From Pomacea canaliculata (Eukaryota; Mollusca; Gastropoda; Architaenioglossa; Ampullariidae), in contig NC_037598.1 of assembly GCF_003073045.1 (NCBI RefSeq), positions 8,153,842 through 8,217,841 of the forward strand: a DNA stretch of 64,000 nt. The letters are read 5' to 3'. Numbering within the stretch: position 1 is the stretch's first letter; each line of letters begins with the position of its first letter. Both the position numbers and the translations under genes were made by a program. This document shows positions 5,981 to 55,913 of the stretch, piece after piece. A model generated the notes under the pieces. That model was given only the letters and a program-made list of their open reading frames with translations, made no database searches and was not told where the DNA came from.

Positions 5981-6066
5981 AGAAGAAGAAGTAGAGGAAG
6001 AAGAAGAAGAAGAAGAAGAAGAAGAAGAAGAAGAAGAAGAAGAAGAAGAAGAAGAAGAAGAAGAAA
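5981..6066. repeat. (AGA)n microsatellite
   Basis: About 85 bp of AGA units with a few interruptions near the left end. On the minus strand the tract gives a spurious poly-serine reading frame. Confidence 0.95.
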
Positions 6067-18400: not shown

Positions 18401-21400
18401 TAGCTCACCCATATATTATCTTCACGTATACAAATACCAAATCAGGGAAGGAAAACATGTCTATTCACACACATTTTCAAGTAGGTATAGGGTATCCAGA
18501 CTACGAGGAGACATAAGGGATACATGATTATTTAGAGATACATAACAATATATGTATGCATAACTAACAAGCAATATTTTACAATATACCAACATAAAAA
18601 ACAAACATATACACATAAATTAACAAACATTTTAAGAATACATACATCTGCCCAGAGAAGCCACACAAATAAAGCAATCATCATAGAATGCACCTTGGAG
18701 CCCATGTGTCATAGGATGACAGCACAATATTAATATATACCAAGACATATGTAGTTTTTGATAATCAAGATCAGATAAATGTATATAATCAGTATTTAGT
18801 TTAGTTAACAAGATGTTCACAGGATAGCCAGTGTTTAGCGAACTTTTCTTCAGTTAATTCTAAACATGCATTAAATTTTTCAATTCAGTATCTGTGTTTC
18901 AATATTTGGATATAGGGTAATTCTAACTGGGGGATAACTTTTTTAAATATACAAGAATATATGTATGCTTTTGCCAGCAATAAAATTAAATCAAGTGGAC
19001 CATCTGTCTCAAAGTTATTATTGCATCCAAATAAAATCAAATGTTCACTAAAAGTTATCTTAGGAGCATTTGCACATTTGTCTAATATACAATTTTGTAA
19101 GTTTTTCCAAAAAAAATTAACAAATTTACACTTCCAAAAAAATATGCTGAATATTTTCTTTATCATCTCTGCAAAGGCTGCAGACATCATCCTCCTCTAG
19201 TCCCATGTGGAATAATATTACTCTTGTCGCCCAGATTCTATGTAACACTCTGATTTGAAGCCGTTTTAATTTAATATCTTTTATATTAGCCATTGCTTTA
19301 AATATAACATGCCAATCAACATTTCTATTTATCCTTTTATCCCAGTGAAAGCAACAGTTTGGTATACATGCGTTAGATAATATTTTATCATAATATGGTC
19401 TTGCTCCTTTCTGTATTGTTCGAATTATTCTTAGAGTTTTGTTTGTGTCATATGTAGAAGGAGATAAATCTGTTTTATTCCTTCTATTTAAGTTTATGTA
19501 TGTTTTTATGGCCTTTATGCAACCATTAAAAGAGACAAAGTCAATGTTAACATCATAATTATTTTTAAAAGCTTGATATGATAGAAAGTTTCCTCTTTCA
19601 TCTGTCAAGTGTTTGAGTATACATCTTTCTCCACCCATCTTCTATACAGAATTGGCTTATTCCCAATTGTTATTCTATCGTTACGAAAGATAGGTTCTGA
19701 CAAAATTTCATGTTTATCACACACTATATTCTCTCCAAAAATCCTGTATGCTTTTAGTATATCCATCCAGAAGCTTTTTGCATTAATATACATGTAGTGG
19801 CAAACTGCAGGGCCCAGTTTGTCCAAATAACCTATTATTTTATGTGTAGACAGAAGATTTTTTTCCAGTTGTGGTTACTTTTCTTTATTTTCTGCAGCCA
19901 TGATAATTTTAACTCATTCATATAAGTTTTAACATCAGGTATGCCCATGCCTCCAGCCTGGATATTTTTCTATTAATTATATCATTTTTTTCCATTCCAT
20001 ACAAACCTAAAGATAGATTTCTGTACGTCATTTATAACAAAGTCTGGAGAGTTAGGTAGTAGTAACCAAAGGTGTACTAGTTTTGATAAAATTAAGGACT
20101 TATAAGTATTGCTACTCTCCCTAATGGAGTTAACTGTCTCTTTAACCGTATTTTGTACAACATTCTTATTTTAGCAAGCTTGCTATCGTAGTTTAATTTT
20201 ATACAGTCTTTTACGTAGGTCTTTTTTTTCTTCTTTTTTTGATAATTGTTTCCATTTTTTCAGGCAAATACCTCAATCTCAAAAGATAGTATCGTGGTTG
20301 AAAAGACTGAACAAGACCAAACATAAAAGCATAACACACGAACAAAGCGATTGTTGATTGGCTGTTTGTCTATAAATAGCCAGTGACGCGAGAGAATTCC
20401 CGGGCAATTCCGAAAAGGACGAGAGGTCACTGTCTTGACCCATTTCTTAACTAAGCAAGCAGCTGAGTCCGCTTGTGCACACCGATGAGAATTCTCGCCA
20501 GCAGCGAACTCAGCTGAGTAAAGTTTGCGGTTAAGTCGGCCAACTTAAGTAAGAAATTTAAGTTCGCTTGTGCACATCAGCCCTGGTCTTTAAAATTGTT
20601 TAGATGACTGATGTGCATTTCAGACTTACAAAGACGAGCAGGGCGATAAGCTTCTGTATGATGTTCACTTCTGGATTGGAAAAGAGAGCACTCAGGTACA
20701 GCCATCTTCATTTTCTTCTTAAGCACACGCATAAAAAGTCATGAAAATAATCTAACTTAGGAGAAAAAACTGTCTAAGTTACTAATTTAAATGCAAACGA
20801 TTCCTTAGCCAATCTCTTAGTAATAGCAGTTTGTTTCCAGTGTCTGCCTTGTATGTTTTTCTTCGTTCTTTTGGGATCACCTCTGATATCCCTGTCATAT
20901 TATTACTTCTTGCCTGGCATATATCTCCATGGTTCAAGACAGACACGCAAGAACAGAAACAGAGCAAATGAAGGGTTAAGGAGGGAAGACATTGTGTGTT
21001 AAACAGGACGAGTATGGCACGGCGGCCTACAAGACGGTGGAGCTGGACACCCTGCTGGACGATGTCCCTGTCCAGCACCGCGAGGTGCAGGGCTATGAAA
21101 GTGATCTCTTCAAGTCCTACTTCCCCAAGATCACGTGTGTACACAATAAATAAATAAATATATATATATATAAAAGCAAAAACATATCACAAGGAGCACG
21201 CGCTCGTGTGTATCCTGTGTATGTCCACGCCATCTTATTGCTTTATGTGGATTTATACATTATATTGGATAAAAAAAGATATAATTAGCTTATTTCGATT
21301 TCAGTCTTGAGTAAGAAACAAAGAACAGAAAATCAACAAAGAAGTATTATTGACAAGATGTTCATCGGAAAAACGGGCATAAATGTATTTGGTGCAATAC

Positions 21401-23847
21401 CTCATGATATCGATACAAATAGGTCGTTCACTGGGCTTCGGTTTTAAATTTTATCATAATTTACAATGAATTTAAACATTTAGGGCTCATGACAAAGTGC
21501 CGCAGATTTCATATTTGATGATTGAGCTTATCATATCTAATCTTCAAGAATTTATAAATGTAGTTATTAGTTTATGAAAGACTGTGTGTGTGTGTGAGTA
21601 TTAATGCTTGTGGGTTTTTTTTTTTTCGTGCACCTTATTGCTTGTTCATGTGCATGTGTTAAGTTACTGGAAGGGAGGTGTGGACAGCGGCTTCCGTCAC
21701 GTGACACCCGAGAACTACAGACCACGCCTCCTGCAGATCAAGGGCAAGGGGAAACAAGTGGAGGCAAAGGAGGTAATGCGAGTACTGCAGTGATAGAATA
21801 ATTTAGGGACAGATAAGTTTGTGATAAGGACAGATAAGTTTTGGTTTTCTTAGACATTAGGTCTCATAGGAGCGGTTTTTCTACCTCCTATTGTCATAGA
21901 CATGTGTGATTACTACTCCAAGGTATGCAAAGTGGGACATTTGAGTGAGTGTGAGCGAATGAGGGATTCAGTGAACAAACAAAAATATCATAAAATGCGT
22001 TTTCTTATAATCAGAACTATAACACATTAACAATATCATTTAATGACTAAAATAATGCGAAGAAGCTCCGAGGCTGGTGTTTTACAAGGTGTAAACCAAC
22101 TCCTCTCATGTACCTATTGATAGTTGGATGGACGAATATGTGTGTATTTGTTTACAGATCACATTGAAGAAATCTAAGATCACCTCGGACGATGTGTTCA
22201 TCCTGGACGATGGCACCTGTCTCTACCAGTTCAATGGAAAAACGTGCAACAAAGATGAAAAATATAAAGTAAGCTATTTCTCTTTTCTTTCTTTCTGTTT
22301 TTCCTCTGTTGTTAATATTGCTTCAGTTACTACTCACGCTGTTCTCGGAAGCACGTGCAGGCCTTTCTTTGTTCAGTCCCTATCCAGCCTGGTAAAATAT
22401 CGTAAAATGTCATTAATTAATTAATATATAATTAGTTGGACAAAGTGAAAAGATAACTCCCACCTTTTACCAAAACATTGCCACCATTCCGGCATTCACA
22501 CCAATGCACTTAAACTAAGAAAAACAGAGGTGCACTCCCTTTAAAAAATGTTTTTCAAGTCGAGCAAGTTATTTGTTGATTTCTGCTATACCCTGCTATA
22601 CCCTGTGTTCTCTGGTGTTGCAGGCATCACAACTCTTGAGGGATCTCAAGTCTCAACGTCCCAAATGCCGTTCTGAGATTGTTGACGAAGAAGACGACGA
22701 TGAGCTAGTGGTATGCTGTTGTCTACTGACAATACGTCATAAACAGACACAACAGACAATCAACATTCGTGAATAACAGACTAACTAATCAGCTGATGTT
22801 TATTGGTCGGTTCTCTGGATAATTTAAGTTAACAATTATGTTTGCATTGTCTTTTTGTTAGAGGTTGGTGGAGTAATGAATCGGTTGATTCATTAATTGA
22901 TGGATTGATTGATTTTGTCTTAAAGCAAAAGTTCTTCAAGGCTGTGGACGAAGCGGATATGAAGGTCGATGATGATGATGACGACGACGAGGTCAAGACT
23001 CCCACCATCGTGACGGGGCCCCCTTCTTTGTACAGGTAAAAGAAAAGTGAGATTAGGTCTGTGTCTGTCTTTGTTTTGTAACTTGAAAATATCTATTTTA
23101 AAAAGATTCAATCTTCATGTTGCCATCTGACCGCATGTTCGATGTTCTCTCCCCTGCCTCTATTACCATTTCTGTTTATCTGTCCTCATTCACACAGACT
23201 CACTGACAGCGGAGGCCAACTGGCGTTCTCCAAGACCAAAGAGGGACATGATATCAGCAAAAAGGATTTCAAGAGCAATGTGAGTGACCTTCGCCCTGCT
23301 TTTTTTACTAACGATTTTTTCCCCATACTGAATTGTTTATCACCTCAGACTTCTATGATCTCAGAAGTCTGTCTTCCTCACAGTTCATAACTCTAGCCGC
23401 CACTTCTTTCTTTGTGGTGCAGGATGTGTTCATTCTCGACACCTTGAAGGATCTCTTTGTCTGGATCGGCAAAAATGCTTCAGAGACTGAGAAAGGCAAC
23501 GGTCTGACATATGCTCATGTAAGTAGCACGTACGTGTGCGTGTTTGTGTGTGCAGCACGTGAGCGCGCGCGTGAAGGGGAGAGAAATTAATCAGGAATAG
23601 CTCATGGTTTTCTTGGCCTAAGTTAAAATAGGGTATTGGAATACTTATCAGTGCCTGCCTTATTTGCTTATTCTTGTCTTTGTCGACGGCGTTAATTGTG
23701 ATGATAATGATTGTGACCATCGTGGAAACGGGCTCTGTGTGTGTCCAGAATTACCTGATGAAGAGCCCACACCCTTTCTTACCTGTCACCTGCTTGAAGG
23801 AAGGCATGGAGAGCAAAGCTTTTCAAACCGCCATCACCGCGTACTAA
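15441..23847 (+). CDS. gelsolin-like actin-binding protein, gene A (13 coding exons, 376 aa)
   Basis: Coding exons: 15441-15447, 15987-16067, 16485-16558, 17167-17241, 20624-20695, 21007-21134, 21664-21772, 22158-22268, 22624-22710, 22926-23035, 23198-23279, 23423-23518 and 23749-23847. All joins use GT..AG and keep frame, giving 1131 nt. The protein starts [16 protein letters not shown]. Repeat G1 (about 43-160) has [26 protein letters not shown] and [14 protein letters not shown], then [12 protein letters not shown]2 (about 170-245) has [10 protein letters not shown]. An Asp-rich linker (about 262-272) leads to G3 (about 283-376) with [20 protein letters not shown]. Three repeats and about 370 residues match severin/fragmin-type proteins, which cut or cap actin filaments in a calcium-dependent way in the cytosol. 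The start ATG follows an acceptor at 15397. Function is inferred from the family. The 3' end of the mRNA was not determined. Confidence 0.93.
16666..16780 (+). repeat. dispersed repeat, copy 1 (intron 3 of gene A)
   Basis: About 115 bp running from ACTACTCCAGAGTATGCAAAG to AGAGCTATAAC. It is matched in the same orientation by 21912-22023 (intron 7 of the same gene) with moderate divergence. No coding content or target duplication was seen, and the family is unknown. Confidence 0.7.
17556..18249 (+). repeat. left arm of the long inverted repeat
   Basis: Matches 19893-20582 in reverse complement, apart from an A-tract length difference near 17900 and scattered substitutions. Its inner third (about 17940-18249) encodes, on the + strand, a copy of the LINE segment also present in the right arm, with words such as FVWNGK and [12 protein letters not shown]. 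Similarity stops abruptly at 18249. Confidence 0.85.
18808..20200 (-). mobile_element. 3' half of an L1/Tx1-like LINE ORF2, inside the inverted-repeat element
   Basis: On the minus strand, from about 20200 downward, the frames give [22 protein letters not shown] and [17 protein letters not shown]. These are followed by [55 protein letters not shown] and [17 protein letters not shown]. This order of motifs is typical of the region after the reverse transcriptase of L1/Tx1-type LINEs, including the Cys-rich C-terminal part. The coding part ends near 18808 and a probable 3' UTR runs to 18250. It is 5'-truncated, and one frame change lies between about 19605 and 19640. Other stop codons are present, so it is not active. 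Confidence 0.8.
19893..20582 (-). repeat. right arm of the long inverted repeat
   Basis: Reverse-complement partner of 17556-18249. Read on the minus strand, it passes from the element end directly into the LINE coding segment, which then continues past the arm into the centre of the element. This arm therefore looks like the original copy and the left arm like its inverted duplicate. Confidence 0.85.
21912..22023 (+). repeat. dispersed repeat, copy 2 (intron 7 of gene A)
   Basis: Direct-orientation partner of 16666-16780. It shares GTATGCAAAGTG, ACATTTGAG, TGTGAGCGAATGA and GGATTCAG, and ends in TCAGAACTATAAC. Confidence 0.7.
22968..22988 (+). repeat. coding GAT/GAC tract, seven Asp codons
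   Basis: Four GAT followed by three GAC codons in exon 10 of gene A encode an acidic run in the linker between repeats G2 and G3. The same linker is acidic in gene C ([12 protein letters not shown]) but without a simple repeat. Confidence 0.9.
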
Positions 23848-33936: not shown

Positions 33937-36633
33937 ATGGAAGGTCTCATCAAGCCTAAACAGTACGACTGGAAGGATTCGAACCTCGCACTGTTTGGAT
34001 CAGACGTCGAAAATCAAGTGAAAAGTGAGTTGCCAAAACCTTCGTGCTAGCTGGTTTTTGTGTTTTGTTTTCGTCTCCTCGTCTTCCTGATTTCAGACTT
34101 GACAATAAATAATGTTTTCTCTAGCTCTTTCCTTAAAGGAACGTTACAAATTTTGTTTTCTGTCACATCTTGAAATGATTTGAATTAAACATACGAATAT
34201 ACATAAAGACTGTATCAATATTTATGGTCTTTGGTCAATGATATGCAATGTTTGTAAAACGTATTGAGTGTACAGTACAGTGAAAGTATGCATTAAATAA
34301 ATCTGAATTTTATTTTACTTATTTTTCCCCAGTATTTGAGGGTAGCTGCTGTTGTTAACTTGTGAGACTGTGTGTTTTCAGAGGAGTCGGCCGAGTGTGA
34401 GCCTGCCTGGCGGAAAGCAGGACAGGAGTTTGGTCTACAGATTTGGCGCATCGTCAAGTTCAAAGTGACTGAGTGGCCAAAGAGCGAGTATGGCAAGTTC
34501 TATAATGGAGATTCCTACATCATCTTAAATGTAAGGGTACCTCCAAGTATTTGTGTTCTTTTAAGAAGTCTTTGTTTTTTCCAATCTGTGTACATTTCCG
34601 AAGTCAATAACAAAGAAACTCTTCTTTCAACCATATTTGGGAAATTTACCAGGATTGCTGCACTTTTTTGGCAAGAGCTTGTAATGTGATCAAAGCTTCA
34701 ATGCCTAGTTCTTTTCTACTTGCTGGTTCCTCTCTCTCTCTCTCTCTCTGTGTGCCTTAATTTCCCTTTGTGTAAAAAAAAGAAGAAGCATATTAATTTT
34801 TTTTTTACAGGGAAGGGAAGTTTTATCGAATCGTTCCGTTAGACACATTCAAAATAAATGCTACACTTTGCCACATTTCTTTCAGCATGCTGTACTGTAT
34901 TATAGTTAGTAGTATTGCATTACAATTACTCTACAAGAAGGAGAGCTGGTATAATATATTTATATATTACTTATATGTACATGTATGTGTATCTGTGTCT
35001 TATGCGTGCCGTCAATAGCTTGACCTTTCTGTGTCTGGTGGTGTTTGTATGTATCTCGAGAACAGTACATTGAGATTTTGAGCTTTACCCAGACTAGAAA
35101 CAATTGCATCCAACTTGACCCTTAAAGACCGTACAATCTACTTTTTTCACTTGTTTGCTCATGTCTGTTTTGAAATCTCTGAATTTCTGTCATCAGACTT
35201 ACCAAGAAGAAGGTTCCGATCAACTTCTGTACGATGTTCATTTCTGGATTGGAAAGTACAGCACTCAGGTTAGCCCAGATATCATACGATTATCTTTCCT
35301 GTTTTCAATTTTTTTAGTTTACATATTTCCATGTTATTTAATTCTGTGTAAAGTTATAATATTGCATATAAAAAGTGACATTTTTAATGGCAGAAAAGAC
35401 AACGAGAGGCAAAAAACTTTGAGTCACACAATTTTTAAAATTAAGCTTGAAGATCGTGTAAACTAAAATTTCATCCATTCTGGCTTTAATGATAACAGTC
35501 TTGTTTTCATAAGAAGCCAGTGAATTATATACAGGGAAAGCTGACTGTTGAAACACAGGTGGCAGAGCCGTGTGATTATGGCGATATAGTTCGGAGGCAA
35601 AATGGTTGCCCACTTCTCAAACATCTAGGCTATTTTATTCCTTTATTTTCCCCTGCAGTCGAGGTTTTCACGCGAACGGTCGTTTCCCAGAAGTGACAGG
35701 TGGTGACGGTCTCAGTCATTTCTATGAAATGGTTTACCACCTGAGACATATCCTGTTAGTCCGGTTTCCATGTAAGACAACCTAGAAAAGCTATGAGCCG
35801 AGGAGGATATCAGTTAACAATGACTCAGGTAGTGAATCAACTAGAAACTTAACTTGCTCAAAACTACACTATCTTTATGGAATTGTTTTTTGAGGCCTCA
35901 GACACTGAACATAGACATTGATTTATGGCTGCTGGTGAGAGACGGAAAGTTTGAATTACTTCCCTATCCATTTGGTGAACAAGAGTTAATAATTTTCCTG
36001 TGTATCTTAGATAAGTCAGCGCTGCTATGCCGGCTCAGTGGACCTCAGTATGTTGAAGATTTCAAATGTCATTACAGATGAAATCTTTTGCTAATTCGAG
36101 TTCCTGTTTATCCTGTGGGGATGTTAGTGGGTGCGATGTCTATAAAGCCTTTGAGCCTATAGCAAGTGTAATCTTTTCCTGTTTATCAGAAATGTAGGCC
36201 GACTGTAAGCCTGATCACGAACTTGTATTACTGGAATGCTGGTAGACGATTTTTTTCCGGTTAACGACTAAAACGAGGCAGGTTTGCACAAAGCTTCCGG
36301 TTTAGTCACATTCTTTGTTACGGCTCGCTGAGACTAACAGCGGAGAACTTCGCAAGAGGCTAAGTGTTGGTCTCGGCAGACAGACAGCAGTCCACCTATA
36401 CACGTGGTCTGATCTAGAATATTGCTATAAAAAAAGGGGGGGGGGAATACGTCACGTGACTCGAAACAGGTGGAAAGGAAGTACAAACTGCCAGTGTATG
36501 TTAATTATTCCGCAGCTGCGCTTCCTTTTCCCTCTGTGAATGCGTGCGAAAGGGATATGTTTTTTTTTTCTACGGTTTCATTTTTACGTTTGTTTAGCTG
36601 TTACTTCCCTTTCACTTTCATAGCAAAAAAATA

Positions 36634-36675
<42 letters not shown>

Positions 36676-38505
36676 AAATCCGAAGTCATATACAACCCAG
36701 CCCAAGTTCTTTTCTGAAACAAAGCACGCTCCTTTTAGTTTAAGTTTCACTTCGAGGTTTACTGAGGGCGTGGATTGATGCTCCCATTGAATTAACATTT
36801 TTTTTTTTGCTCGTTGCCCGGTATATGGATATGAAAAAGTTGACAATACACTAAGTCCAGTCCATTTTTTTCAGTTTCCTCATAAAGACCTGTCAAAGAC
36901 GCATGGCCAACACGAAGTGTAACACGGCCCTATACTCGACCACGAAGGCTTGTTTATGATCTGTCAGGCTGTGGAGCAACCCACACATTCCCTTCACTTA
37001 GCTACATTCTCAGTTTGTTTCGACGCACATAATAACCAAGAGTCCTTGTTCTTTCCTACACCTACTTCACCGAGTATGGGAGAACACTCTAACTGATCGA
37101 TAATTAAATGTTTTAAATTAAATAATTAAGCACACACACACACACACACGAATATTGCCAATGAAACTGTCAGGCCATAATGACACGCGAGGTCTCAGTC
37201 CCTGTGAAAATGTTGTTTCATAATCACAAAATATCAGGTCATAAATAATGAAGGACTACTGGAATGAGAAGTGTGCAAGAATTTCCTCCTTCATGACAGA
37301 TTTACAGTGCCTAAAGTACCATTCTGAAATGTCTGCTCACCAGGATCACGCAGAACTAACTTCCTTAGTATGCACGTACTTGGACCCTGGTGGTATTACC
37401 TTTTTCCTGTTCATCACCATTGTTTCCCTTGACCAATACTTGCTGACCTTTGTTGGTAACTTCATTCCTACTGATCGTCGTGGACATTGTCTAGAGGCAG
37501 AGGCTGACAGACAAGGTTTGCTTCCTTGCAGTAGTCAAGTGCTGCATCAATCTGCCCTTCACCTCCCAATGCATGTCAAACGCATTCACCAATGCCGGTC
37601 TGCACAAAGTTTTCACTACAAAATATGCATTCTGGCTGATGATAACTACATAGCTAATAACAAATAAATTAATTCATCTCACACAACACACGTGAGGCCC
37701 CAAAAAATCCGAGGACCCACGATTTCCACCCTTTCTGCGGCAGAAGGGTAAGAACACAGGGACAGCTCTACCCCCGTCCTCCCTTTACCTGCCCTTACAA
37801 TGACAATTCAGTACTCGGAGAAATTTCCATGACATTTCACTGTTATCAAAAATGTGTTTATGGAACAAACGCTTGGTCAATTTAAAAAAAGATGTGGACA
37901 ATACATTGCAAGGCACAATTAATGTCACTGTAGAGAAACCAGATATGCTGGGTGCAGAATATTCTCAGTATCAACCTGAAAACAAACTGTTCTGTGAGAA
38001 GAAAAATCACCTTGTCCTTGCATTATAAAATGAAAAGGCAATGCAAAAAATAGTTCAAGCATCATCCAGTACCAACATATTGTGATGTTTGTCCACCACT
38101 GCATGCGGGTGGTGCTTTCATCACAACTGTTTGCTCCTGTCGTTAGGACGAGTACGGAACGGCGGCGTACAAGACAGTGGAGCTCGACACCTACCTCAAC
38201 GACGTTCCCATCCAGCACCGCGAGGTGCAGGACCACGAGTCGGCTCTCTTCCGGTCCTACTTTCCGACCGTCACGTAAGTGCAGGCTTATTCATGGTTGG
38301 TTCATCTTAAAAATTATTTCAAAGTAGAAGTTGCTTGTGCCTAATTCTTTATTATTTCACAAAGTGTTATCACAAATGAGTTCTTTAAGTTCTTTAAATT
38401 AAGTGTCTTGTGCTGAAAGTTGTTTACGTCTGCAGCTGAATCAGGTTCTGCTTTTTCCCTTAAGGCTTGTTAGTGTAGAAGGGTGAGAACGTCTTCACAA
38501 AGTTT

Positions 38506-38543
<38 letters not shown>

Positions 38544-41500
38544 GAGGGAAGGGGATACACATCCCTCTTTCTTTCTTTCTCTCCCACCTACTCCCACTGC
38601 TCACCTCCTTTTAGTCCATTCATTAACTACTTTCTGGGCTAGGTGTTAATACTTGCTATTAAAATTAGACTAGAGATGCAAAAAGCGAACATAGTGGCTA
38701 CAGTAAAAAAAACCAACATTTATCAATTATCATAACGATCCAAAAATAGTTATCTCCTTCCTGTTCTGGCTGTCTGGCCTAGCTAAACTCACGCAAGCCA
38801 ATGATGTCCTTCTAGTGTATTCAGCTGCGTTAAAAAGTAGTTTTTAATCTCTAAAACAAGGGAACTAGGAGTTAATGTTCAAGTCAGACAGTTTTCTGTT
38901 TTCGTTCTTTACAGAATTTTGGAGGGAGGCGCCGACAGCGGCTTCCGGAAGGTGAAGCCAGAAGAGTACAGACCACGACTTCTACATTTCCATGGTGACA
39001 AACATGGAGTCAGAGTCAGGGAGGTCAGTTGGATATCAGCTCATTTGGCTAGCAACACAATACACATACACTGAGGCTGTCACCCGTTCACGGATACGTG
39101 CCAGCTAAACTGAAAAGGCCTGTCAGCATTCCTGGAGACTGACGTCACAATATACCTGAACACCCCAACGGTTTTGTCCAGGAGAAGCCATATGCTGATT
39201 GTTAAATTAGTCTCATTTTCCCAGAAGGGTCTGATAGCAACGAAAGTTAACCCCCTTAGTTTCAGCAAATACTGTTTCTTTCCGATCTACAGACAGCCAA
39301 ACACCAAAGACATACTGTTTGTCCTCTTGGGGTATAGTTCGGGGAGTCAGCGAGAGATACCCTGCACCTGTGGGTGACTAACCTATGGCAAACGTAACCT
39401 CCATCCATCCAGTGCCCTACATGAGCTATATATCCTCCAGTTTTATTGCTGTATTACTCAGCCCTTTGCGTGTATCGTGCAGTCAGGTGCTTTGTCATGA
39501 GCATTATCCTCGAGTAACCCAATCACTCAAACTTTACGGAAACCTAACGGTGCTGAACTAAGAGGCAACCCGAGACCGCTCACGCCTCAAATAAGACCTG
39601 TATGAGTTTGATAAATCGCTGTATATTAACTTTACTACTATTATTTAGTGTTAGCACTATGATAGCAAAATAAGTGTTAGCGCTATATTAGCAAACTACA
39701 AAGTGTTAGCACTATGCTTATCCTAAACACAGTTCTGACGCGTTCTGTAAACAGGTACCCCGATGTCGGTCCCGGATAGACTCTACTGATGTATACATTC
39801 TGGACCTGGGATTGAGGCTCATCCAGTGGAACGGCAGAGGCAGTAACAAAGACGAAAGGTTCCAGGTCAGTAGCGGGCTTCATATTTCGCCTTTTCACCC
39901 GATATCACTGTAACACACTATAGATGTGGCATATAGCAAGACAGTCAACATCAAGCAGTCAGTCAAGTTGCTCTTAAAATTGAAAGACTTACCTGAGAGA
40001 GCAATTATATTAAAATAAGTAGAGTCTTAACTCATTAGCGAAGACTAATTTCCAAAATCTGAGTGACGAAAGTAAAACTTTGTTTAAGCATGATTGGTGA
40101 TCTGCCACAAACCTTGAAATACTACAGTTCTCATCTGGGCTTTAGAAAAAAAAGGTCCAAAGGTCATGTTCTGTGACGTAACAAAAGTAGGTTTGCTGAT
40201 TATGCAACGATTGATGATTGATGATGATTTTCCTGTGAAGCATACAGCTCTGTGATTTTTTTAAAAAGTACAGCACAATGCCAAAAATTTGAGTGTACGT
40301 GGGGTCGTCTTGTGGACGGAAAGAACAAGACTGGACCATTCAGTCTTGCGTTTGCTATTTAAAAGTGCTACAATGCAGTACATCATATGTCTCAAATCAT
40401 GTAATAATAACTGTTTGATCGTTATGAAGGCTTTGAGCTACAGCAAGCAGCTGGCCAGCGAGCGGGGAGGAAAGCCGAAAGTGGAGACAGTAGACGAGGG
40501 CAGCGATGCGGTAAGTTTCCTTGTTTACTGGTTCAGTGCGTATGTCTGTCCGTTCAACTGCCTATTATAACGTTTAAAGCGTGCTTTCGAAAGAGAAGGC
40601 ATACCCTTAAGCTTGATCATGTTGGTGCAGCAGGCTTCTAATAGTTTGCAGGCTGAAAGTCATGTCTATCACGAGATAAAACGACAAGAACTAAAACTGA
40701 AACCGGTGGATCAGATGGCCACCACCAGCACGATGACACTATTGGGTTTGACACAGCAGTGACTAGGACAACACTCCACTTCGACTTTTCTCTTTTTAAT
40801 GACCACACAAGCCATAACATTGTCGTTGCCTTCTGTGCAGTTTAATATTTCATTATGGTTGAAGCAGCTGGTAAAACGTTTAAGACACGTGCATATATTT
40901 TGTGGGTTCTTGTAGGTTTGTAACCATAAGTCTAATGATAGTTAAAGAGCTCTCTCTCATTTTGAAACGTTTTTGCGCCACCATAGCCGCGTGTGTTTCT
41001 CCAGAGACGTTATACCCGCTCTAGTTTCTCTAAATGAGACCGGTTGTTGTGGGGTGGGAGGGCGGGGAAGGACATGATGAGACGCAGCAGCAGCGAAGGC
41101 GCACCAACAGAGCGCATGTTGTGCCCCTCTTTGGAAGTCTCCCGTATGGCAGCCACTCAGCTCATTCATGTTAGTTAACCATTCTAGCGCTATACAAATT
41201 TAATTTTTTTTAAAGTGCCTGGGTACTTTTCCAACCTCGTTCCCGCCGAAAATTCTACAGCTGAACAGTGTTCACCAAATACTCTGTGTCACGTTTAACC
41301 CTTTTCCCGCTGACATTCTCATTCATTCTTCATTACATGTTATATACCTTTTGCAGTTCATAAGTAGCAAAGGGGTTAAAATAACCTAAAAACGTGGAGG
41401 CACAGACTGTTCCGTGACAGAACAATGTATCTTAATATGTCGCATCGATCTCATGGCAGAGGGAATTTGACCGGTACCTGGACAAGGAGAACGAGACAGA

Positions 41501-44439
41501 GGAAGAGTTCCTGGCAGCAGACAAAACCCCGGAGCTGTACAGACTGTCGGACGCCTCAGGCACCATGTCATTTAAACTGGAGAAACGGGGAAACGTATCC
41601 AGATCGGACTTTGACAGCAATGTACGTCTGTCTCTCTCCATCACTGTAACGTTTTCCGTTTTAATTTTAATATATAGATTTGTTTTGTTCTTGGATATGT
41701 CTCGACGATGCTCTATTTCTTTCAGTTCCAGACATGTCATTTAATTGGATAGTCCTTACCATCTTTGCTGCTGTATGTGTGTGATTTGCTTACGTTCAGT
41801 CCTAGATTATAAACATTTCATCCCCTTTCCACACAAAAATTCCCACTCAGTATGTTTGTTGTTACAATTTGTATTAATTCCGTTCTGGATGACGCCAAAT
41901 AACAACAATTTTTATCTGCTTTCTAGGATGTTTTCATTTTTGACACAAAGAGTGAGCTCTTTGTGTGGATAGGATGCGATACGACAGAAGCTGAGAGAAA
42001 AAATGCCATGGTGTATGCACACGTAAGCTGCTATTTGCTCTACTTTTACGATATATAACGGTGTTCACGTGTTGTACACGCCCCTTTACCAACTCTGATA
42101 TAACACAAAGGAAACAGTTTAGCAGACTGTTAAAAAATAGCCTCTCTATATCCTGCTTAAGACATACATAAATACGGTATTCTAAGACGATTACTTTTTA
42201 AGCAAACAATGTTTCTTTCTTGTTATTGCGTTTCGCAATACTGTATATTCAGGCTATCTGCTGCTAACTACAGTCCAAGGGAAATAACAAAGAAAAGTCA
42301 TTAAGTCATAGCAAAATTACTTCCCTTGATTTTTGAGCTCTGTTTTTATCATCGATTTGCTTAGAACAAAAAGCACGGAATACCTTCAAGTTACAGAAAA
42401 AGGGAACTGACAAAGAAAAGAATGTTATCATTTAGGTGCAGCTATACTACTTCCCTTGATTTGACACTTTTCTGTCGCTGTCGATTTACATGAGGCTACA
42501 TTGCAAGGGATGTAACAACGGAAAGAAGAGTGTCAATTAGGCGGGAAATTACTTCCCTTTATTTGTTGCACTGCAGAAAAACCATCATGTCAAAGAGCAA
42601 GGGAAGTACAATACAAATTTCTTAATCCACAAGGGCAATTCCAGATAGTACACGTACTAGCAATATATATATTGGAAATATGTTGAAATAATTTCTCTCA
42701 CACAGACTAGTGAACATATACATTATATACACACACACATTCCCAGCAACAGTAGTGACCTTAGGTCACCTCAGGCTAGTACAAGATGATGGCCAGTAAA
42801 TTTGATCAAGGAAATGGCATGTGGAATGAATGAGCTGCGGAGACGATTGGTTCTGCCTACAGGCATCGCGTACATACAGTCAGACCACAAGAGTGAAAAC
42901 ACATATCCCAGCACATGATCAGGAATAGAGAGGACGCAGGACTTCCTATGGATTTGTTGATGACAAAAGGCTGCCAAGTCCCTCTGCCTGATTCCTGATC
43001 TTGGAACAGATATTAACAAGGGAGACAAGACTGCCCCTGTTCCCTAGGGAGAGGCCGTGGAACCAATTTAAGCGATGAAAGAAAAAGTGATGAGACTTTC
43101 AATGAAGGACTGATAGAACCGAGTGAGGACTGCTGACAGAGAAAGATTTGATTGAGTTTCCGTTTAGGAGGTAAAGAAGTTGCTGGCTCATAAGGAGGAT
43201 ATCAGTGTTGATGTTCCATTTAAACTTGTTATCTACAACTATATTAGTTTACAATATGAATAGTAGAGAAGACAATCAGTAGCCTTGAGGGGAACCTGTA
43301 CAGGTGACAACACTAGGATCTAACAGAAGACCATTAACATAAACTCTCTGCAGCCTGTTTGTTACAAAGTCCAGGTTCCAGAGAGTTAGTTGGTGGGATG
43401 GATGAAAGTTTGAAACTAGACTCGATCTCTGCAAACAAGTGAAGTTGCACAGCATTCAAAACAGAAGAAAAATCAGAGAAGTCTGGCATAAGCTCTGGGT
43501 TTTTTCCTAGATGTTTGTACATCGTATTTATTATAAACAGCTTAAGCTAATTAGCATCATCACCTCCTCCAGCTCTGTAGGAAACTGCAGTGGGTCAAGC
43601 AGCAGTCACAACTTCAATCGCTCCTTAGTGAACTTACAATTTTCTCAAGTGATTTACATGATGGACGCAAGAGCGACTGGTCTGAAGTTGTTGGGTTGAC
43701 TGGGCCTAGTGAGTGGTGGGACAATTAATGTGCGAAAGTTTTCAAATATCAGGAATGTGACCAGAGACTACAAAGAGCTGGAATAGATGTTGTCAAACTC
43801 CACTTAGTTCATTGGCACAGTAATGAAGGGTGCGTCCACAGATGCCGTCTGGACCTGGAGCCTTATTAATGAGATCTTTGACAGAGGACTTCACACAACA
43901 CATACTCAGAGACAAGAGACTGTTTTAGCGTGGAAACATTGTGAGAGAAGTCATGTTTCTCAAAACGGGCATAAAGAGAATAAAGAGAAGCATGTTGGGA
44001 ATATCACATTCATCAACGCCTGAACGTGCCAATGGTTGTTTAAGAGCGTTTTCCTTGGAACAATAACAAATTAAGGAACCAAGGAAAGAGTGTCATTTAG
44101 GTGTTAAAGCATGCTCTTGAAAGAGTACCATTAGGCTTGGCCATGTTGGTGCAGCAGGCTTGTAATAGTTTGCAGGCTGAAAATCATGTCCCTTGACTTA
44201 TTGCACAAAGTTTTGTTAACCACCGAGTGATTTACTTGAAACGATAAAGAGCAAACTATATGCTCTAATACATTTCATATTTTTTTCTTTCCAATGTTCA
44301 ACATGTGGATGGTTTTTAATCAAACTTTTTCATGTTTCAGAGATACTTGATGGGTACAGACCACCCGATGCTTCCTGTCTCTTGCGTGTCGGAGAATGGC
44401 CGTCAAGCTCCAGCCTTTGTGTCGGCTCTTTCCTCGTAA
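33937..44439 (+). CDS. gelsolin-like actin-binding protein, gene B (10 coding exons, 364 aa)
   Basis: Coding exons: 33937-34024, 34382-34530, 35197-35268, 38147-38274, 38915-39023, 39755-39865, 40430-40510, 41460-41621, 41927-42022 and 44341-44439. The total is 1095 nt in frame. The protein starts [21 protein letters not shown]1 (about 43-160) carries [32 protein letters not shown] and [15 protein letters not shown]2 (about 170-245) carries [11 protein letters not shown]3 (about 270-364) carries [16 protein letters not shown] and ends FVSALSS. It is a severin-like, three-repeat member of the gelsolin family, probably a cytosolic calcium-dependent actin regulator. Exon 34382-34530 equals exons 3+4 of genes A and C, and 41460-41621 equals their exons 10+11, so two introns are missing here. 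Gene B lies in the same direction as gene A and converges with gene C. Confidence 0.93.
36348..36401 (+). repeat. short dispersed repeat, copy 1
   Basis: About 54 bp starting CTTCGCAAGAGGCTAAG and ending TCCACCTATAC. It is matched with about eight differences by 55077-55131. Origin is unknown, possibly a fragment of a SINE. Confidence 0.6.
36639..36678. repeat. (AAAT)n microsatellite
   Basis: About ten AAAT units in intron 4 of gene B. Confidence 0.9.
37606..38074 (+). repeat. dispersed repeat, copy 1, with a nested insertion
   Basis: Matches 48045-48420 in the same orientation over about 340 bp. Shared stretches include GCATTCTG, TAAATTAATTCA, AAGGCACAATTAATGTCACT, AAACTGTTCTGT and GCAAAAAATAGTT. 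It is interrupted by a 128-bp insertion (37677-37804). It lies in intron 4 of gene B and ends about 70 bp before exon 38147. No coding frame was seen. Confidence 0.75.
37677..37804. mobile_element. 128-bp insertion with AATTCA target duplication
   Basis: The sequence is absent from the paralogous copy at 48045 and is flanked by AATTCA on both sides (37671-37676 and 37805-37810). It contains GTGAGGCCCC and GCGGCAGAAGGGTAAG. There are no clear inverted ends, so a short SINE-like or retroposed piece is possible. Confidence 0.5.
38506..38544. repeat. (GTT)n microsatellite
   Basis: About twelve GTT units in intron 5 of gene B. Confidence 0.95.
39650..39716. repeat. short tandem repeat, ~28-bp unit, three copies
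   Basis: AGTGTTAGCACTATGATAGC-AAA recurs three times with small changes, about 40 bp upstream of exon 39755 of gene B. Confidence 0.75.
40573..40666 (+). repeat. ~90-bp dispersed repeat, copy 1
   Basis: Starts TTTAAAGCGTGCTTTCGAAA and ends GGCTGAAAGTCATGTC. It is matched in the same orientation by 44104-44190, where TTGGTGCAGCAGGCTT and TAATAGTTTGCAGGCTGAAA are conserved. The type is unknown. Confidence 0.75.
41294..41380. mobile_element. possible 87-bp MITE-like element
   Basis: Begins TTTAACCCTTTTCCC and ends with the near reverse complement AAAGGGGTTAAA. It lies in intron 8 of gene B. The ends are short and no target duplication was confirmed. Confidence 0.3.
42271..42610 (+). repeat. 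degenerate ~110-bp tandem repeat, three units
   Basis: Each unit has CAAGGGAAATAACAAAG near its start and ATTACTTCCCTTGATTTG in its second half, so it is itself bounded by inverted AAGGGAA / TTCCCTT. A fourth unit lies at about 44060-44240 and is split by the 90-bp repeat at 44104. This AAGGGA..TAAC motif is frequent in mollusc non-coding DNA. Confidence 0.6.
42771..43905 (-). mobile_element. antisense relic of a CR1/Rex-like LINE reverse transcriptase
   Basis: On the minus strand, 43840-43870 reads [11 protein letters not shown], the start of the reverse transcriptase of this LINE group. Further on come [19 protein letters not shown] (the D-FSSA-N region) near 43480, and LLWSDCMY then [17 protein letters not shown] near 42810-42890, which matches the C-terminal (L)P.GR..R....R.....F.P.AI pattern. 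Several frame changes and stops lie between these pieces, and parts are missing. It lies in intron 10 of gene B, opposite in direction to the gene. Confidence 0.7.
44104..44190 (+). repeat. ~90-bp dispersed repeat, copy 2, inside a tandem-repeat unit
   Basis: Partner of 40573-40666. On both sides the sequence continues as the ~110-bp repeat family of 42271-42610: GTCATTTAGGTG before it, and TCCCTTGACTTATTGCAC after it. The 90-bp piece was therefore inserted into, or exchanged with, that unit. Confidence 0.7.
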
Positions 44440-48997: not shown

Positions 48998-49003
48998 TTT
49001 ATT
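48998..49003 (-). terminator. polyadenylation signal AATAAA for the distal last exon of gene C
   Basis: TTTATT on the + strand is AATAAA on the minus strand. It lies 87 nt past the stop codon of exon 13b. Confidence 0.5.
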
Positions 49004-49089: not shown

Positions 49090-49185
49090 TTATGCTTTAA
49101 GGGCCTTTTCAAAGGCTTCGCTTCTGGAGCCTTCCTTGATCACAGTGAGGGGTCGCCATGGTTTACCAGATTTACTGACGTAGTT
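49090..49185 (-). CDS. gene C alternative last exon 13b (distal)
   Basis: Acceptor TTTGATGTACGCAG, then 31 codons beginning [19 protein letters not shown] and ending EKALKA, then TAA. It has the same length and entry phase as exon 13a and matches it at 16 of 31 residues. An AATAAA follows 87 nt past the stop. It replaces the last part of G3, including the C-terminal helix. Confidence 0.85.
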   Translation of the reverse strand, partial: NYVSKSGKPWRPLTVIKEGSRSEAFEKALKA

Positions 49186-52100
49186 CTGCGTACATCAAAA
49201 AAACTCAAAGCTCAGTATTAAGGCAGTATTATACACTACATATTAATAGTGATTGTAGAGTGAGAGTTTGTGTGTTTGTGCATGCACAAGTACAGGTGCA
49301 TGTGCATGCATATGTTCATGTTTGACCTTTCTCACTCTTGCTATCTTCTTATGCTCATCTGCATACATACACACATGTAGTAGACATATGCATATAGTAG
49401 ATATATATACACATGTAGTAGACATTACACATAATGCAGGGCATAATCAAAAGCACTGCTGAAAATAAAACATTAAATGCTTTAATATAAAATTTTGGGG
49501 GATCAGGGTTTAAGAACACATCACGTATTACATATATCACAGACAAAAAGAAGCTAGTGCTGCACTAACTGCTTCTGATCAGTAGGCCAGCAGGAACATT
49601 TAGTAAAGGCATTAGTTATCCAGCACCTAAATACAATGTAAATGCTGATACACCAATATCACAACTCTGGAGACATACTCAGGGAAAGACCAGAGCAACT
49701 AGAAAGATGGTCAACATCAAAAAGACTATGCAGGGAGAAACCAAACCCCTCTGCTTGCACAATAGAAATGGCAGGCATGTAAGAACATGGAAAACAACAA
49801 TGGGATACGATGAAGAGAAGAACAAAGTGGCGTGAAAATTCTGCAAATGAACTGCAACAAAAAAAGCAGTTCGCGAGCACAGAACTCATACACAAACTGG
49901 AAAGCAGCATGCGCTGATACCAAAATACAGCTAGCATTGTCATGCATGTTGATAACATTATAAGGTGAAAAAGAGTTGGGGTTTCCTCACACTGAGGCAA
50001 ACTTTTGAAATGAGAAAGGCTGTTGGTAGGCACATTAACCGCGGAGAGCAGCGGCAAAGGTTTCACACTTGGTTCCTTCCCGCAGCACAACCAAGGGGCG
50101 CCATGGCTGGCCAGTGCTGGAAATATAGTTCTGCCCAAGGCAAGAGAATGAACTGAGCATGCACACTCGAACCAGTCATGATTTATCTCACAGCAGCTTA
50201 GATACCAATGATACAGCTATTTTGACAAGATGCAATTAAGATTACAATGGAAGAACACATAAGAGAAAGAAAGAAATAGCTATTCATGAGGATGTCAATT
50301 AAAACATTACAAAGCTACCGCATTTAGATTGTAATCCATGTCTAATGGTTTTACTTTAGCAAATATTTTCCTAAAAAACTAAAACAATTATTAGGAAGGG
50401 TCTAGAAACTGACAAATTTACTTTATATTTTAGTAAAACAAATTTATTGTATGTAATGAGTAGCGAAGCAAAGGTTTTCTATTATAAAACAATATATTCA
50501 TTCCATTGTTGCATCTTTCCAATCATTAAAAACACTAGAAAAAGTGTTATTGTGTCCTTGTTATCTCTTATGAAATGTAAATTTATTCAGATCTAATGAG
50601 CAGAGTAAGAGCGAGATAAGCCATATACAGATGGTCTGGTGGTCCAAGTCAAAGTCAAGAAGACAAGAACTTAAAAAAAACAAACCCAAGCTATCACAAA
50701 ACAAACCTTTGTTGGAAATGGTCATCTGTCATAACATTTTATAACCAAAGGGAACAGACTGAAGGTTAATAAAATCACTGCCCTGAAGAAGACTATAGCT
50801 TAATATTTCACTGCTAGTAAAGCCAACCATTGACATAAACTGGTCTTATTCAATAAACTATTAGAGCTTTGTAGATCATCTGCCTAAAAGATAAGTACGC
50901 TGGAATTCACCATCACATAAAGAGAGTAGAGATAGAGGAATAAAACTCCATAGATGACTACATACATGTGCTAGGGGCAGGCCATTCTTTTTCTCATCAG
51001 GTGAAGCATTTGCACCAATCCACACAAATACTGCCTGACCATTATCAAAGATGAAAACATCCTGAAACACAAATGAAAGAGCACCATGCACCGGCCATCT
51101 TTGTCTGCTAACCATGTATTTTAACTTTACTGGGAGTCTGTGTTACTGCATTTGGAAATCTTTGAAATCTTCAAAACAATGTAAATCTTCATACAAGCAG
51201 TGTTTATCATTGCAACGGAAAATAGAATGCAATAGAATAACTCTATATGTTTAAAATCTATAGGCAGTTTGCATTATGGCATCAGAAAACAATCTGGTAA
51301 AGCTTAGATATGATCATAATAAATGAACTGAACGCTGTAAACATATGCAGTTTCCCCCATTCTCTCTAATTCTCTCTCACACACACACCCACACACACAC
51401 GTGCATGCAAAAAATTTTAAGTATAATTCATAAACTTTATACATATATATATATTCAGACAACATATATATGTGTGTGTGTGTGCTGCTTAGCCTTACTG
51501 ATAAATAACTTGTACAACAGCCACCATTTTCTCTTCAGCAATAATTTTTCTTTTCAATTTAATATTTTTTTTGTTCAATTTAATGTGCTAGCAGAATAAC
51601 ATCAGTACAAGTTTCTCTGTTTTAATGATGGTGTGTTCCAAATAATTTCAAAAGCAGCTTACATCACTCTTGAAATCATCCTGAGTTACGCCCCCTTCCT
51701 TCACCAGTTCATAGTCACGGGTATCAGTGTTGACTCTATAACAAAACAACAAACATGGTTTTTGGTTGTCATTTACATACGGCTTTTGCTTTTTAATCAG
51801 CATTTCTCACTACTTACTAACACAAGGTTTAATTTGCTCCATGTCAAAATATATTTAGGATTTTTTTTTCAAGGTGTAATCAGCTTGAAAAACAAGCAAC
51901 ATAAACAATATCAAGGATTTCTCACCTATAAAGCTTGTTATCTGCTGTGGGGTCTTCATTATCAGAGTCGTCATCATCATCAGGGTCTTCATTCAGATAA
52001 CCAAAGAAAGGGTGCTACAACATTTGGTAGATCAATATCAATGTAAGATGCAGCTGACCAGAGGAAGAATTAAGTAGATTAATAAATAAAGAATGTGCAC

Positions 52101-55100
52101 ATTGACTTAATATTACAATACATAACTGTATCAACATAGTCTGAAAAAGCTATCCTGCATTACAAGATTTTAGAAATATATTTAAAATGTTGGAAATAAA
52201 ATTATTTGTCAAAAATTACATCTTACATATAATTCATAAATGACGTAAAAATATGAACAACTTACACTGTCCGAAGTGCTATCCTCTTCTAAAACCACTG
52301 AAGAAACTTCACCACGCTTAGATTTGATTTGGCAAATAAAGTCACTTGCCTGCAGAAAGACGTAATTTGCTACATCTTTTCAGCAATACACATTTTTATC
52401 CACATTTTCAAACTTTTGAAACTAAGCTTACTGACATCAGTACTTAAAAACTCAATGGTTTTTTTCTGCTTTTTTTTTTTGCTGGCAGTATGATTTTCCA
52501 CAAATACTTGCAAAAGTGTGCAGTTTAAGCAAAATATGAGATACTGGTCTTTATTGTTCTTCATTTATCGTATGTGGTCACCTTATTACGCTCAAATGGG
52601 CTTGACTTGTTTCCATTCCACTGGTAGAGAATGTCACCAGCATCTAGAACGTAGACATCATCTGAGTTGAGTGGTAGCCTTCTGGGAACCTGCCAAAATA
52701 AAACATGTCTCTAATGCGACCATAAATGACTGACATGCTAAGAGCTAATCAGGATAATAAGTTAAAAACAAAAATACTAGAGAAACAATTAAACATATCC
52801 AAAAAGAACTAGAGCAGTTCTAAATGATGTGTATTGGCTCCAAAGATGCAGTAAATGAGTGAGAAATAAGTGCAAGAATGTTTTGGTGGCTTACCTCTTT
52901 CAATACCACCTTCTTGTTCTTGTCACGTGAAACAAGTGTCAGTCTGGGAATATACTCAGCCTTGTCTGCCACCCGCACAAAACCACTGTTGACACCACCC
53001 TCCATTATCCTATAAACACACATCATTCTATTTTAGTTCATAAATTTTGAAAAAAAACCAAACTGAAATAAATATAAAATACCTGTAACCTCTAACAAAG
53101 GAGGACTCAATCACTACTGTGAGGAGAAATACTCAGTTAATCTGTCGGCAAAGGACACTTAGAGTTAGTCCTGACCTTTTGCTAACAATTAATCCTGACT
53201 TAATAAGTATCCAAAGTACATTTTCCTAAATGACAGCATATTGATTTAATTAACAAAACTTATTTCTTTGTTTCTGGGGACAAACATTTTAACATACTTA
53301 CACCATTCCCTTGGGAAAGTAACTCTTAAACAAATCACTCTCATGACCTTGAACTTCACGATGTTGAACAGGCTTGTCGTCAAGGAAAGTATCAAGCTCC
53401 ACTGTCTTGTAGGCTGCTGTACCATACTCATCCTAACAATGCACCAGAAATACTATTGTATGCTATTATGCCATCCACAGCAAGCTAATAAGCACAAGTC
53501 TAAAAAAGGGATAATTATATGAGAAGAAATGTAAGAGAAGATAGGGGGAAAAAACCTGGCCTGATTGGCAACTTGGGTAAATCTGAAAATCATAAACACA
53601 TTGAAGCACCATATCACATATTAAACTTATGATTATGTGTGGAAAAGTGGTGAATAGCTTCTTGTTTGTTTGCACTGATTTATAAATATTACTAACAGAG
53701 AAATGTGATTGGCCAGGTCACTTTACCTCAAACATTCCCAGCATGCTCTGTCAAAAATGAAATGCTGGACTGACTTTAGGATGGTTGCTACTTATATAAA
53801 TGCCAGATCATGAGCCTGTTGTTGTTTTTGTTTGCTTTGGGGGTTTTTCTGTCAAAAACAAGAAACAGGGACATTGCAAACCAATTGCCATTGCTTACCG
53901 TAGAGCTGTACTTTCCAATCCAGAAGTAAACATCATAGTGCAGTTCATCACTATCCTTATCTTTGTAAGTCTGCAAAATATAAATTATAGTCAATTAAGA
54001 GAGAAGAATCTTGAACATTTGTAGTACTTTAAGTTTCTTTCTGTTATTCATTACTACAATGTCCCTTCAGTAAGAATTGAGAAAGTGCTCTGAAAAAAAT
54101 GTTTACTGAAAAGTTAAACTAAGAAAAAGGATGCAAGTTAAGCAATAGCGTTAATGAATTGGAATGTGAGTGTGGGGTGTTGGAAGAGACCTAGACCAAA
54201 ATCCTATACAGATGGTGAGAAATGGTTGTAATAAAGCAAAGAACTGGTAGGAATGTAGAGAAACTGAAAGCAGGTGATGATAAAGAGATGTAACAGCGAA
54301 GAGAAGTACTTATTTACTAACATTCAGAATAATGTAGGAGTCTCCACTGAAGAATTCTCCATAATCTTCCTTTGGCACATCTTTCACTTTGAATTGCTGC
54401 AATATAAGCATGGTTGTGAATCACTGTGCCTATGAAAGTACTATTCAGGCAAATACCTATGTCTGCATGCACCCATTCTTTGCATTTGTCATATTTAATG
54501 CACAATATGTATGAAAACAAACAAACACGCACATATCTTGGAAAATTAAAATAATTTTTCTAAATTCTGCATGAAAGAAGAGTTTTCACACCTCAATCCG
54601 CCAGATTTGAAGACCAGGTGCTCTGCCAGCTCCTTGCCATGCAGGCTCAGTTTTGGCAGACTCCTCTGTTGATGACAAAAACAGAAACCCTTGCTATTAT
54701 GGCAAAGCAAAAACACATTTATACACAAGCACACCTCCTTCTGTCTGACGTTTTATTTACTGCACTTAAGTCAGACTGGTACCATATGTTTAATTGTTCA
54801 TTAAAGTGCCTATAAATGATCTTAAAAATTGTTGATTAACCCCTCTATTCCCAATATTTTTTAATGAAATAGTCAATAATTTTTTAATTTACTTTTGTGG
54901 TTATTATTCTGGAAATCATTGGTTTAGAATTTTGATATTGAAAACCTGCTGTCTTGTGTCTGCAGCAGACCATAGGATATATAGCTACATTCAATTGTTG
55001 ATCCATCTGGATGGTCTGGTTACGTCTAAATGCAGTTTTTTCTACATTTTATTCAAGTACTGAAGTCTTCTAAAGTCTTCGCAAGAAGCTAAGCGCTGGT

Positions 55101-55913
55101 CTTGGCAGACAAGACAGCAATCCACCAATACAGGTCCATGGGTCTAACAGTTACATTCAAATTCCGTCATTTTAGGATCCCATAACAGGTAGCCCGCATG
55201 TTGGTTTCTCTTCCCTTACTTGGGACCCTTACTCTTACCGCCTCTCTTGCAGGATGGGATATTGATTTATTCAATGGGTAAAAGATACACAGAAATTGAT
55301 CATTGTAGACATCCAAGTTATAAAGTGTACACATGCTTTCTATCTTACTTCTACTGTTGAGGACACTTTTAAACCATATGGTCTATGCATCATGCCAAAA
55401 CATTTTTATCTGTACAGATATTTACAATATTGAACAATATCCAATGTGAACACCACAGATCTAGGTTTTTTTCACTTTTATAACATATCACTTGATTATA
55501 TAGCACTTACTCTTCACTTTTTTGTCAATGTCAGAGCCAAAGTTGGCAAGGTTAGTCTGCTTCCAGTCATACTTTGCAGCTTTTCTCAGACCTGAAAAAA
55601 ATTAACATATTCTATCTTACCTAAACATTATTAAATTAATACATTAAAAACATAAAAAAATCTTTATTTCCTCAAGACCTTCCACCAAGTTAAATCCTCC
55701 TTCATATAAACAATTTTAACTATGTTTTAAGAAAAAATTTTCTTTCTGGAAACAAAGATTACCTTGCAAGAGTTTTGTTTTAGACTTTTCATAAAGGTTG
55801 CTAAATCTGTTAAGTATAAACTAACATTCCATTAACAGTATTATATAACAAAAGCTAAATCAATATTTCTGTTTAATGTTGCTTATGTATGACTCACCTC
55901 GACTTCCAGACAT
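49090..55913 (-). CDS. gelsolin-like actin-binding protein, gene C (12 shared coding exons + one of two last exons, 369 aa)
   Basis: Coding exons in order of translation: 55913-55898, 55591-55511, 54665-54592, 54396-54322, 53970-53899, 53432-53302, 53009-52895, 52689-52582, 52349-52266, 52014-51926, 51735-51663 and 51061-50966, then 50130-50035 or 49185-49090. Either last exon gives 1110 nt in frame. The protein starts [20 protein letters not shown]1 (about 46-165) has [28 protein letters not shown] and [15 protein letters not shown]2 (about 175-250) has [11 protein letters not shown]. The linker is acidic ([12 protein letters not shown]). G3 (about 280-369) has [20 protein letters not shown]. 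Exon order and intron positions equal gene A. The leader acceptor is at 55966, giving 52 nt before the ATG. It is a three-repeat, severin-like actin regulator by family. Exons use more A/T-ending codons than A and B. Confidence 0.93.
49481..49486 (-). terminator. possible polyadenylation signal ATTAAA for the proximal last exon of gene C
   Basis: ATTAAA on the minus strand, about 550 nt past the stop of exon 13a and about 295 nt before the acceptor of exon 13b. Its position would allow a separate mRNA ending in 13a. Confidence 0.3.
50035..50130 (-). CDS. gene C alternative last exon 13a (proximal)
   Basis: Acceptor CTTGGGCAG, then 31 codons beginning [19 protein letters not shown] and ending AAALRG, then TAA. 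The length is the same as the terminal exons of 13b, and one codon shorter than those of genes A and B. Both C exons share PWRPL where A has PFLPV and B has PMLPV, so the duplication happened within the gene C lineage. Confidence 0.85.
   Translation of the reverse strand, partial: NYISSTGQPWRPLVVLREGTKCETFAAALRG
55077..55131 (+). repeat. short dispersed repeat, copy 2
   Basis: CTTCGCAAGAAGCTAAGCGC to ATCCACCAATAC, partner of 36348-36401. It lies in intron 2 of gene C, antisense to the gene. Confidence 0.6.

Follow-up and report, generated by a model that had tools for sequence, protein, structure and literature searches.

Gene C, located on the minus strand of the 64,000-nucleotide stretch of Pomacea canaliculata DNA analysed here (C9:8153842-8217841, hereafter the window), ends in two tandem and homologous last exons, 13a and 13b. 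Judged from their sequence, these are probably alternative last exons of a single three-repeat gelsolin gene of the severin/fragmin type, which would give rise to two proteins.

Results

Exons 1-11 of gene C (51663..55913, minus strand; ATG at 55913) are common to both predicted isoforms. Exon 12 (50966..51061, minus strand) comprises 32 codons with phase 0 at both ends and provides the donor shared by 13a and 13b. An intron of 835 nt (50131..50965, minus strand) leads to exon 13a (50035..50130, minus strand), which has the acceptor ...ccttgggcag and 31 codons followed by TAA. Exon 13b (49090..49185, minus strand) has the acceptor ...gatgtacgcag and likewise contains 31 codons and TAA. Conceptual splicing joined exons 1-12 into 338 codons, with all joins in frame and phase 0 at the end of exon 12, and either last exon extends this to an isoform of 369 residues. 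Both isoforms contain three Gelsolin repeats (Pfam PF00626; 141.5 and 142.6 bits), and the gene C protein aligns over its full length with G1-G3 of gelsolin.

At the protein level the two last exons match at 16 of 31 residues, at the nucleotide level at 56 of 96 positions, and both encode PWRPL. Splicing and alignment thus bear out what a preliminary description of this DNA had claimed for the pair, from the coordinates and the AG to the 31 codons, the stop, the common phase and the shared residues. The resemblance is not a chance match, as shown by an E value of 6.75e-10 in a tblastn search that covered the window and ten further loci from the genome. The open frame alone is weaker evidence, since 70 of the 7862 AG-preceded 96-mers of the window likewise stay open for exactly 31 codons and then reach a stop. 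Collapsed or misassembled haplotypes were considered as a source of the pair and are unlikely, because the copies match at only those 56 nucleotides. Gene C therefore carries what is expected of homologous tandem alternative last exons, namely tandem homologues at the 3' end, each with its own acceptor and stop, of equal length and in a shared phase. No third copy of the last exon turned up at gene C, nor did gelsolin exons from a different gene in the interval separating 13a from 13b.

A protein search of the snail's own genome (440,159,624 bases, 24 contigs) returned 42 exon-level matches. Two paralogues lie on the plus strand of the window, A (exons 2-13, 15987..23847) and B (33944..44439, with exon 10 left out of the model), and the same contig carries a fourth three-repeat gelsolin gene, paralogue D, at a distance of about 5.7 Mb (C9:2450637-2456597). 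All three share the exon plan of gene C for exons 2-13 as modelled, including an exon 12 of 96 nt, and all three have one last exon of 32 codons in phase 0. Those of A (23749-23847, with PFLPV) and B (44341-44439, with PMLPV) had already been described as single. A scan of the gene strand in the 3' regions of all four genes, with all five last-exon sequences as queries, agrees with this: gene C has two copies, and A, B and D have a single copy each. Below these hits, the highest scores were -2.4 (C), 10.0 (A), 13.2 (B) and 10.2 (D), all of them below the chance maximum of 18.2 reached in 20 simulated 6.4-kb sequences; the value of 13.2 at B corresponds to B's own last exon, one codon out of register. 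Other gelsolin-type matches are located on contig C1. Last-exon queries against the C1 loci that were retrieved gave no match better than E 0.23, and these loci are therefore uninformative on the last exon.

Several other features of these genes and of the window were observed. Exon 10 (51926-52014, minus strand; 22926-23035, plus strand), located between repeats 2 and 3, encodes an acidic run. In paralogue B, the counterparts of exons 3 and 4 of A, C and D form one open frame (34366-34533, plus strand), and the intron between them seems to have been lost. Short motifs like ACTTCCCTTGATT recur in intron 12 of B (42250-42600 and around 44185, plus strand; read by eye) and are perhaps pieces of a dispersed repeat. 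An AGA tandem repeat of about 45 copies occupies positions 5928-6065.

Exons 13a and 13b (16 of 31 identical residues) differ to roughly the same degree as do the single last exons of the paralogues A, B and D when compared pairwise (13 or 14 of 31), which suggests that the last exon was duplicated probably at about the time of the gene duplications. Identity among the genes over exons 2-12 is 53 to 61% (values for B are rough). Synonymous change between 13a and 13b is saturated (NG86 dS 1.88, dN 0.47); a dS value was obtained for the 13a-13b and 13b-A pairs and none for 13a against A. In an unrooted tree of the five last exons, the topologies that pair 13a with 13b were the best 3 of 15, and the other 12 were worse by at least 15.3 log units (AU test with fewer replicates than IQ-TREE advises). 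Being unrooted and limited to five exons, this tree is also compatible with a duplication before the split of A, B, C and D that was followed by losses. The sole non-self match with E < 0.1 between the two units (80 nt, 65%, E 2.4e-5) begins 4 nt upstream of exon 13a and otherwise lies inside the exon. Outside the exon, no match fell below E 0.1, so the flanks offered no homology by which to date the duplication.

Intact frames had been taken as a sign of selection on both exons, and our simulations of neutral divergence (four settings with 20000 runs each) support this. When copies drifted neutrally to 56 of 96 identical nt, the frame and the stop survived along with 16 or more identical residues in at most 0.00015 of the runs of any setting. 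Six residues (Y2, P9, P12, G19, F25 and A28) do not vary among A, B, D and one of the two gene C copies, and all six are kept in the other gene C copy, whichever copy serves as reference. The neutral probability of this is 0.00035 and 0.00025 in the two directions, and 0.011 if only the 16 of 31 matches are given. Differences between 13a and 13b number 13, 9 and 18 at the three codon positions, and the excess at third positions has a neutral probability of about 0.035. The simulations and the six invariant residues show that both copies were held to the family pattern, under constraint at the protein level, for most of their history.

Past constraint does not mean that both copies are alive today, since 61% of neutral copies still have their AG, frame and stop intact when 5 of 96 sites have changed, and 38% when 10 of 96 have. 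One copy, more likely 13a, could hence be a recently dead or unused relic, and a single protein would be made. The numbers of changes point both ways: with A as outgroup, 13a has 7 changes and 13b has 1 (binomial p = 0.07), as a decaying 13a would predict, yet with B and with D as outgroup there is 1 on each. While no AATAAA directly follows 13a, its acceptor outscores that of 13b. Scores against solved gelsolin-family chains are mixed, with 13b above 13a for gelsolin and fragmin (best 94.1 versus 87.6 bits; fragmin 6kwz 45.7 versus 38.0) and 13a above 13b for adseverin 3fg6 (65.2 versus 63.9 bits) and villin 3fg7 and 2llf. Long-term neutrality is excluded for either copy by the simulation and the six invariant residues. 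We consider a relic unlikely and favor two alternative last exons that are both in use.

The donor of exon 12 scores 6.89, which places it 16th from the bottom of 42 donors (median 7.77). Among 46 acceptors ranked with a leave-one-out matrix, that of 13a is sixth best and that of 13b sixteenth best. Among the 112 AG sites in 50945-48900, ranked with a matrix built without 13a and 13b, the 13a acceptor comes first and the 13b acceptor sixth, with four AG sites besides 13a scoring above the latter. A candidate distal poly(A) signal, AATAAA (48998..49003, minus strand), is positioned about 86 nt past the 13b stop. No AATAAA was found between 13a and 13b. This interval contains a candidate proximal signal, ATTAAA (49486..49491, minus strand; 548 nt past the 13a stop, with positions accurate to within a few bases), as well as ACTAAA, a weak variant, at 49604. 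The choice between 13a and 13b is probably tied to the choice of the poly(A) site. The lack of AATAAA between the two exons, the four AG sites that outscore the 13b acceptor and the slightly low donor score count against the use of both exons. Competing RNA pairing as a selector of the exons was rejected, as no pairing between intron 12, the intron separating 13a from 13b and the 3' flank stood above shuffled sequences; the best complementary stretches were matched by 3, 3 and 1 of 25 shuffles. Rfam gave no matches at the gathering score in the window.

Exon 13a might alternatively be an internal poison exon that is spliced on to 13b, so that its premature stop leads to transcript decay and sets how much protein is made, not which kind. 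Of 64 GT sites, the strongest, at 49374, scores 7.05, which lies above the lower quartile of real donors (6.9) yet under their median of 8.5. A poison exon would need neither all six family-invariant residues nor a bias in codon position. We regard such a role as very improbable and retain the reading of 13a and 13b as alternative last exons.

In alignments, the residues encoded by exon 13 fall at the end of the G3 core and match the end of gelsolin G6 equally well. Going by the gelsolin fold, the last 31 residues would complete the long helix of the G3 core and also supply its last strand and its short terminal helix. The net charge is +4 in 13b and +2 in 13a, and 13a contains a Cys. An effect of the swap on G3 itself, for example on its stability, or on the contact between G1 and G3 is possible, and binding of actin or lipids might be altered.

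The preliminary description had further envisaged a C-terminal latch as in vertebrate gelsolin. This is not supported for gene C, whose protein ends where the gelsolin tail would begin. Both isoforms stop 6 residues after the conserved Phe, whereas a 778-residue gelsolin chain runs on for 26 more; with no tail beyond the core of the last repeat, gene C does not belong to the latch-bearing gelsolins, and a latch of the vertebrate type is therefore absent. The acidic calcium ligands of the repeat reside in the part encoded by exon 12, which is common to both isoforms; this argues against altered calcium control through such a latch. In gelsolin, the latch is the tail beyond the G6 core and docks on G2 (passages in PMC13013752; docking also in PMC4654503). 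Altered calcium control through a latch of this kind would fit with the C-terminal position of the variable residues, and calcium control of a lily G1-G3 protein has been modelled as the release of a G1-G3 latch (described in part of PMC4654503). Set against the missing tail, these points leave it with hardly any probability. A somewhat less remote, although still unlikely, idea is that the swapped last strand and helix of G3 retune the G1-G3 contact and thereby the calcium concentration needed to open the protein, which would yield tissue-specific severing proteins that do without a tail latch.

Discussion

Our preferred reading of gene C can be put as a simple scheme. The last exon would have been duplicated in tandem long ago, giving 13a and 13b, and the donor of exon 12 would be joined to the acceptor of either one. 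Transcripts with 13a would either stop at the proximal poly(A) site, for which ATTAAA around 49486 is the candidate, or extend to the distal one, and transcripts with 13b would skip 13a and end after the AATAAA near 49003. In its simplest form, splicing and polyadenylation at 13a would compete with skipping to 13b. Should the proximal poly(A) site fail, a longer transcript would still encode the 13a protein. The two predicted proteins of 369 residues would be the same throughout repeats 1 and 2 and over the greater part of repeat 3, and would differ in their last 31 residues.

The pair had been called mutually exclusive, and this is correct insofar as the two ends exclude each other in a protein. 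As a class assignment it needs to be changed, since homologous 3'-terminal exons are grouped with multiple poly(A) sites and not with strict mutually exclusive exons in the relevant passages of PMC3228551. Compared with the definition given there, gene C agrees in length, splice sites, frame and similarity, and departs from it in that the coding exons are not internal. Because 13a and 13b are terminal and both contain a stop codon, they do not form a strict mutually exclusive cluster.

Among the best-ranked matches in the open-licence literature, we found no paper that reports alternative last exons for a gelsolin of molluscs, which does not imply that none is in print. Passages on gelsolin-like proteins of snails and other molluscs in PMC8533556, PMC9829102 and PMC4657243 leave the last exon undescribed. 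Pomacea gelsolin-like protein 2 (XP_025106310.1) is cited without an isoform suffix in the passage of PMC8533556 that names it, and this would count against two isoforms if that protein is the product of gene C. An Aplysia protein appears in PMC4657243 as 'gelsolin-like protein 2-like isoform X1' (XP_005100380), a name that hints at several predicted isoforms in that animal.

Fragmin, severin and gelsolin G1-G3 have three repeats like gene C, and exon 13 corresponds to the end of the third (PDB matches). For these proteins, no description of an alternative last exon was found in the literature searched. Gelsolin isoforms of lobster and earthworm are possible parallels. In lily, ABP29 and ABP135 are gelsolin-family isoforms that arise by alternative splicing and differ around G3, as predicted for gene C; however, ABP29 lacks G3 entirely, whereas gene C would exchange the end of G3 only (passages in PMC4654503). 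If both forms are made, one gene would supply two three-repeat gelsolins that differ only at the end of G3. This would amount to a natural chimera experiment on a repeat whose biochemical role is described in part of PMC4654503 as poorly understood.

Homologous terminal exon pairs are a recognised class, to which the gene C pair is an addition in the gelsolin family. Of the human tandem duplicated exon substitutions reported in PMC9741552, 77 of 236 are C-terminal, a class that the passages in question call "highly enriched", and most of the events are old. Like the predicted gene C isoforms, the resulting human proteins are identical except for one homologous region; the human events were annotated from transcripts and concern other gene families, whereas the gene C pair is known from sequence. 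In Drosophila, pip, PGRP-LC and CG42235 contain tandem terminal exons or exon groups that are picked singly, and competing RNA pairing has been proposed for these genes (sections of PMC9013439), unlike gene C, where no pairing exceeded the shuffles. Two actin regulators are close in principle. In human capping protein beta, homologous 3'-terminal exons occur together with multiple poly(A) sites (listed in PMC3228551), although this protein has an unrelated fold and no gelsolin repeats. In tropomyosin, the alternative homologous C-terminal exons 9a, 9c and 9d change actin affinity (parts of PMC8152229 and PMC9741552). Tropomyosin thus resembles gene C as an actin regulator with swapped C-terminal exons (PMC8152229, same part) and differs from it in being a coiled coil in which the exon alters the end-to-end overlap, while in gene C the exon contributes to a globular core. 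If our reading is right, an actin-severing protein would join tropomyosin and capping protein beta among the proteins with swapped C-terminal exons.
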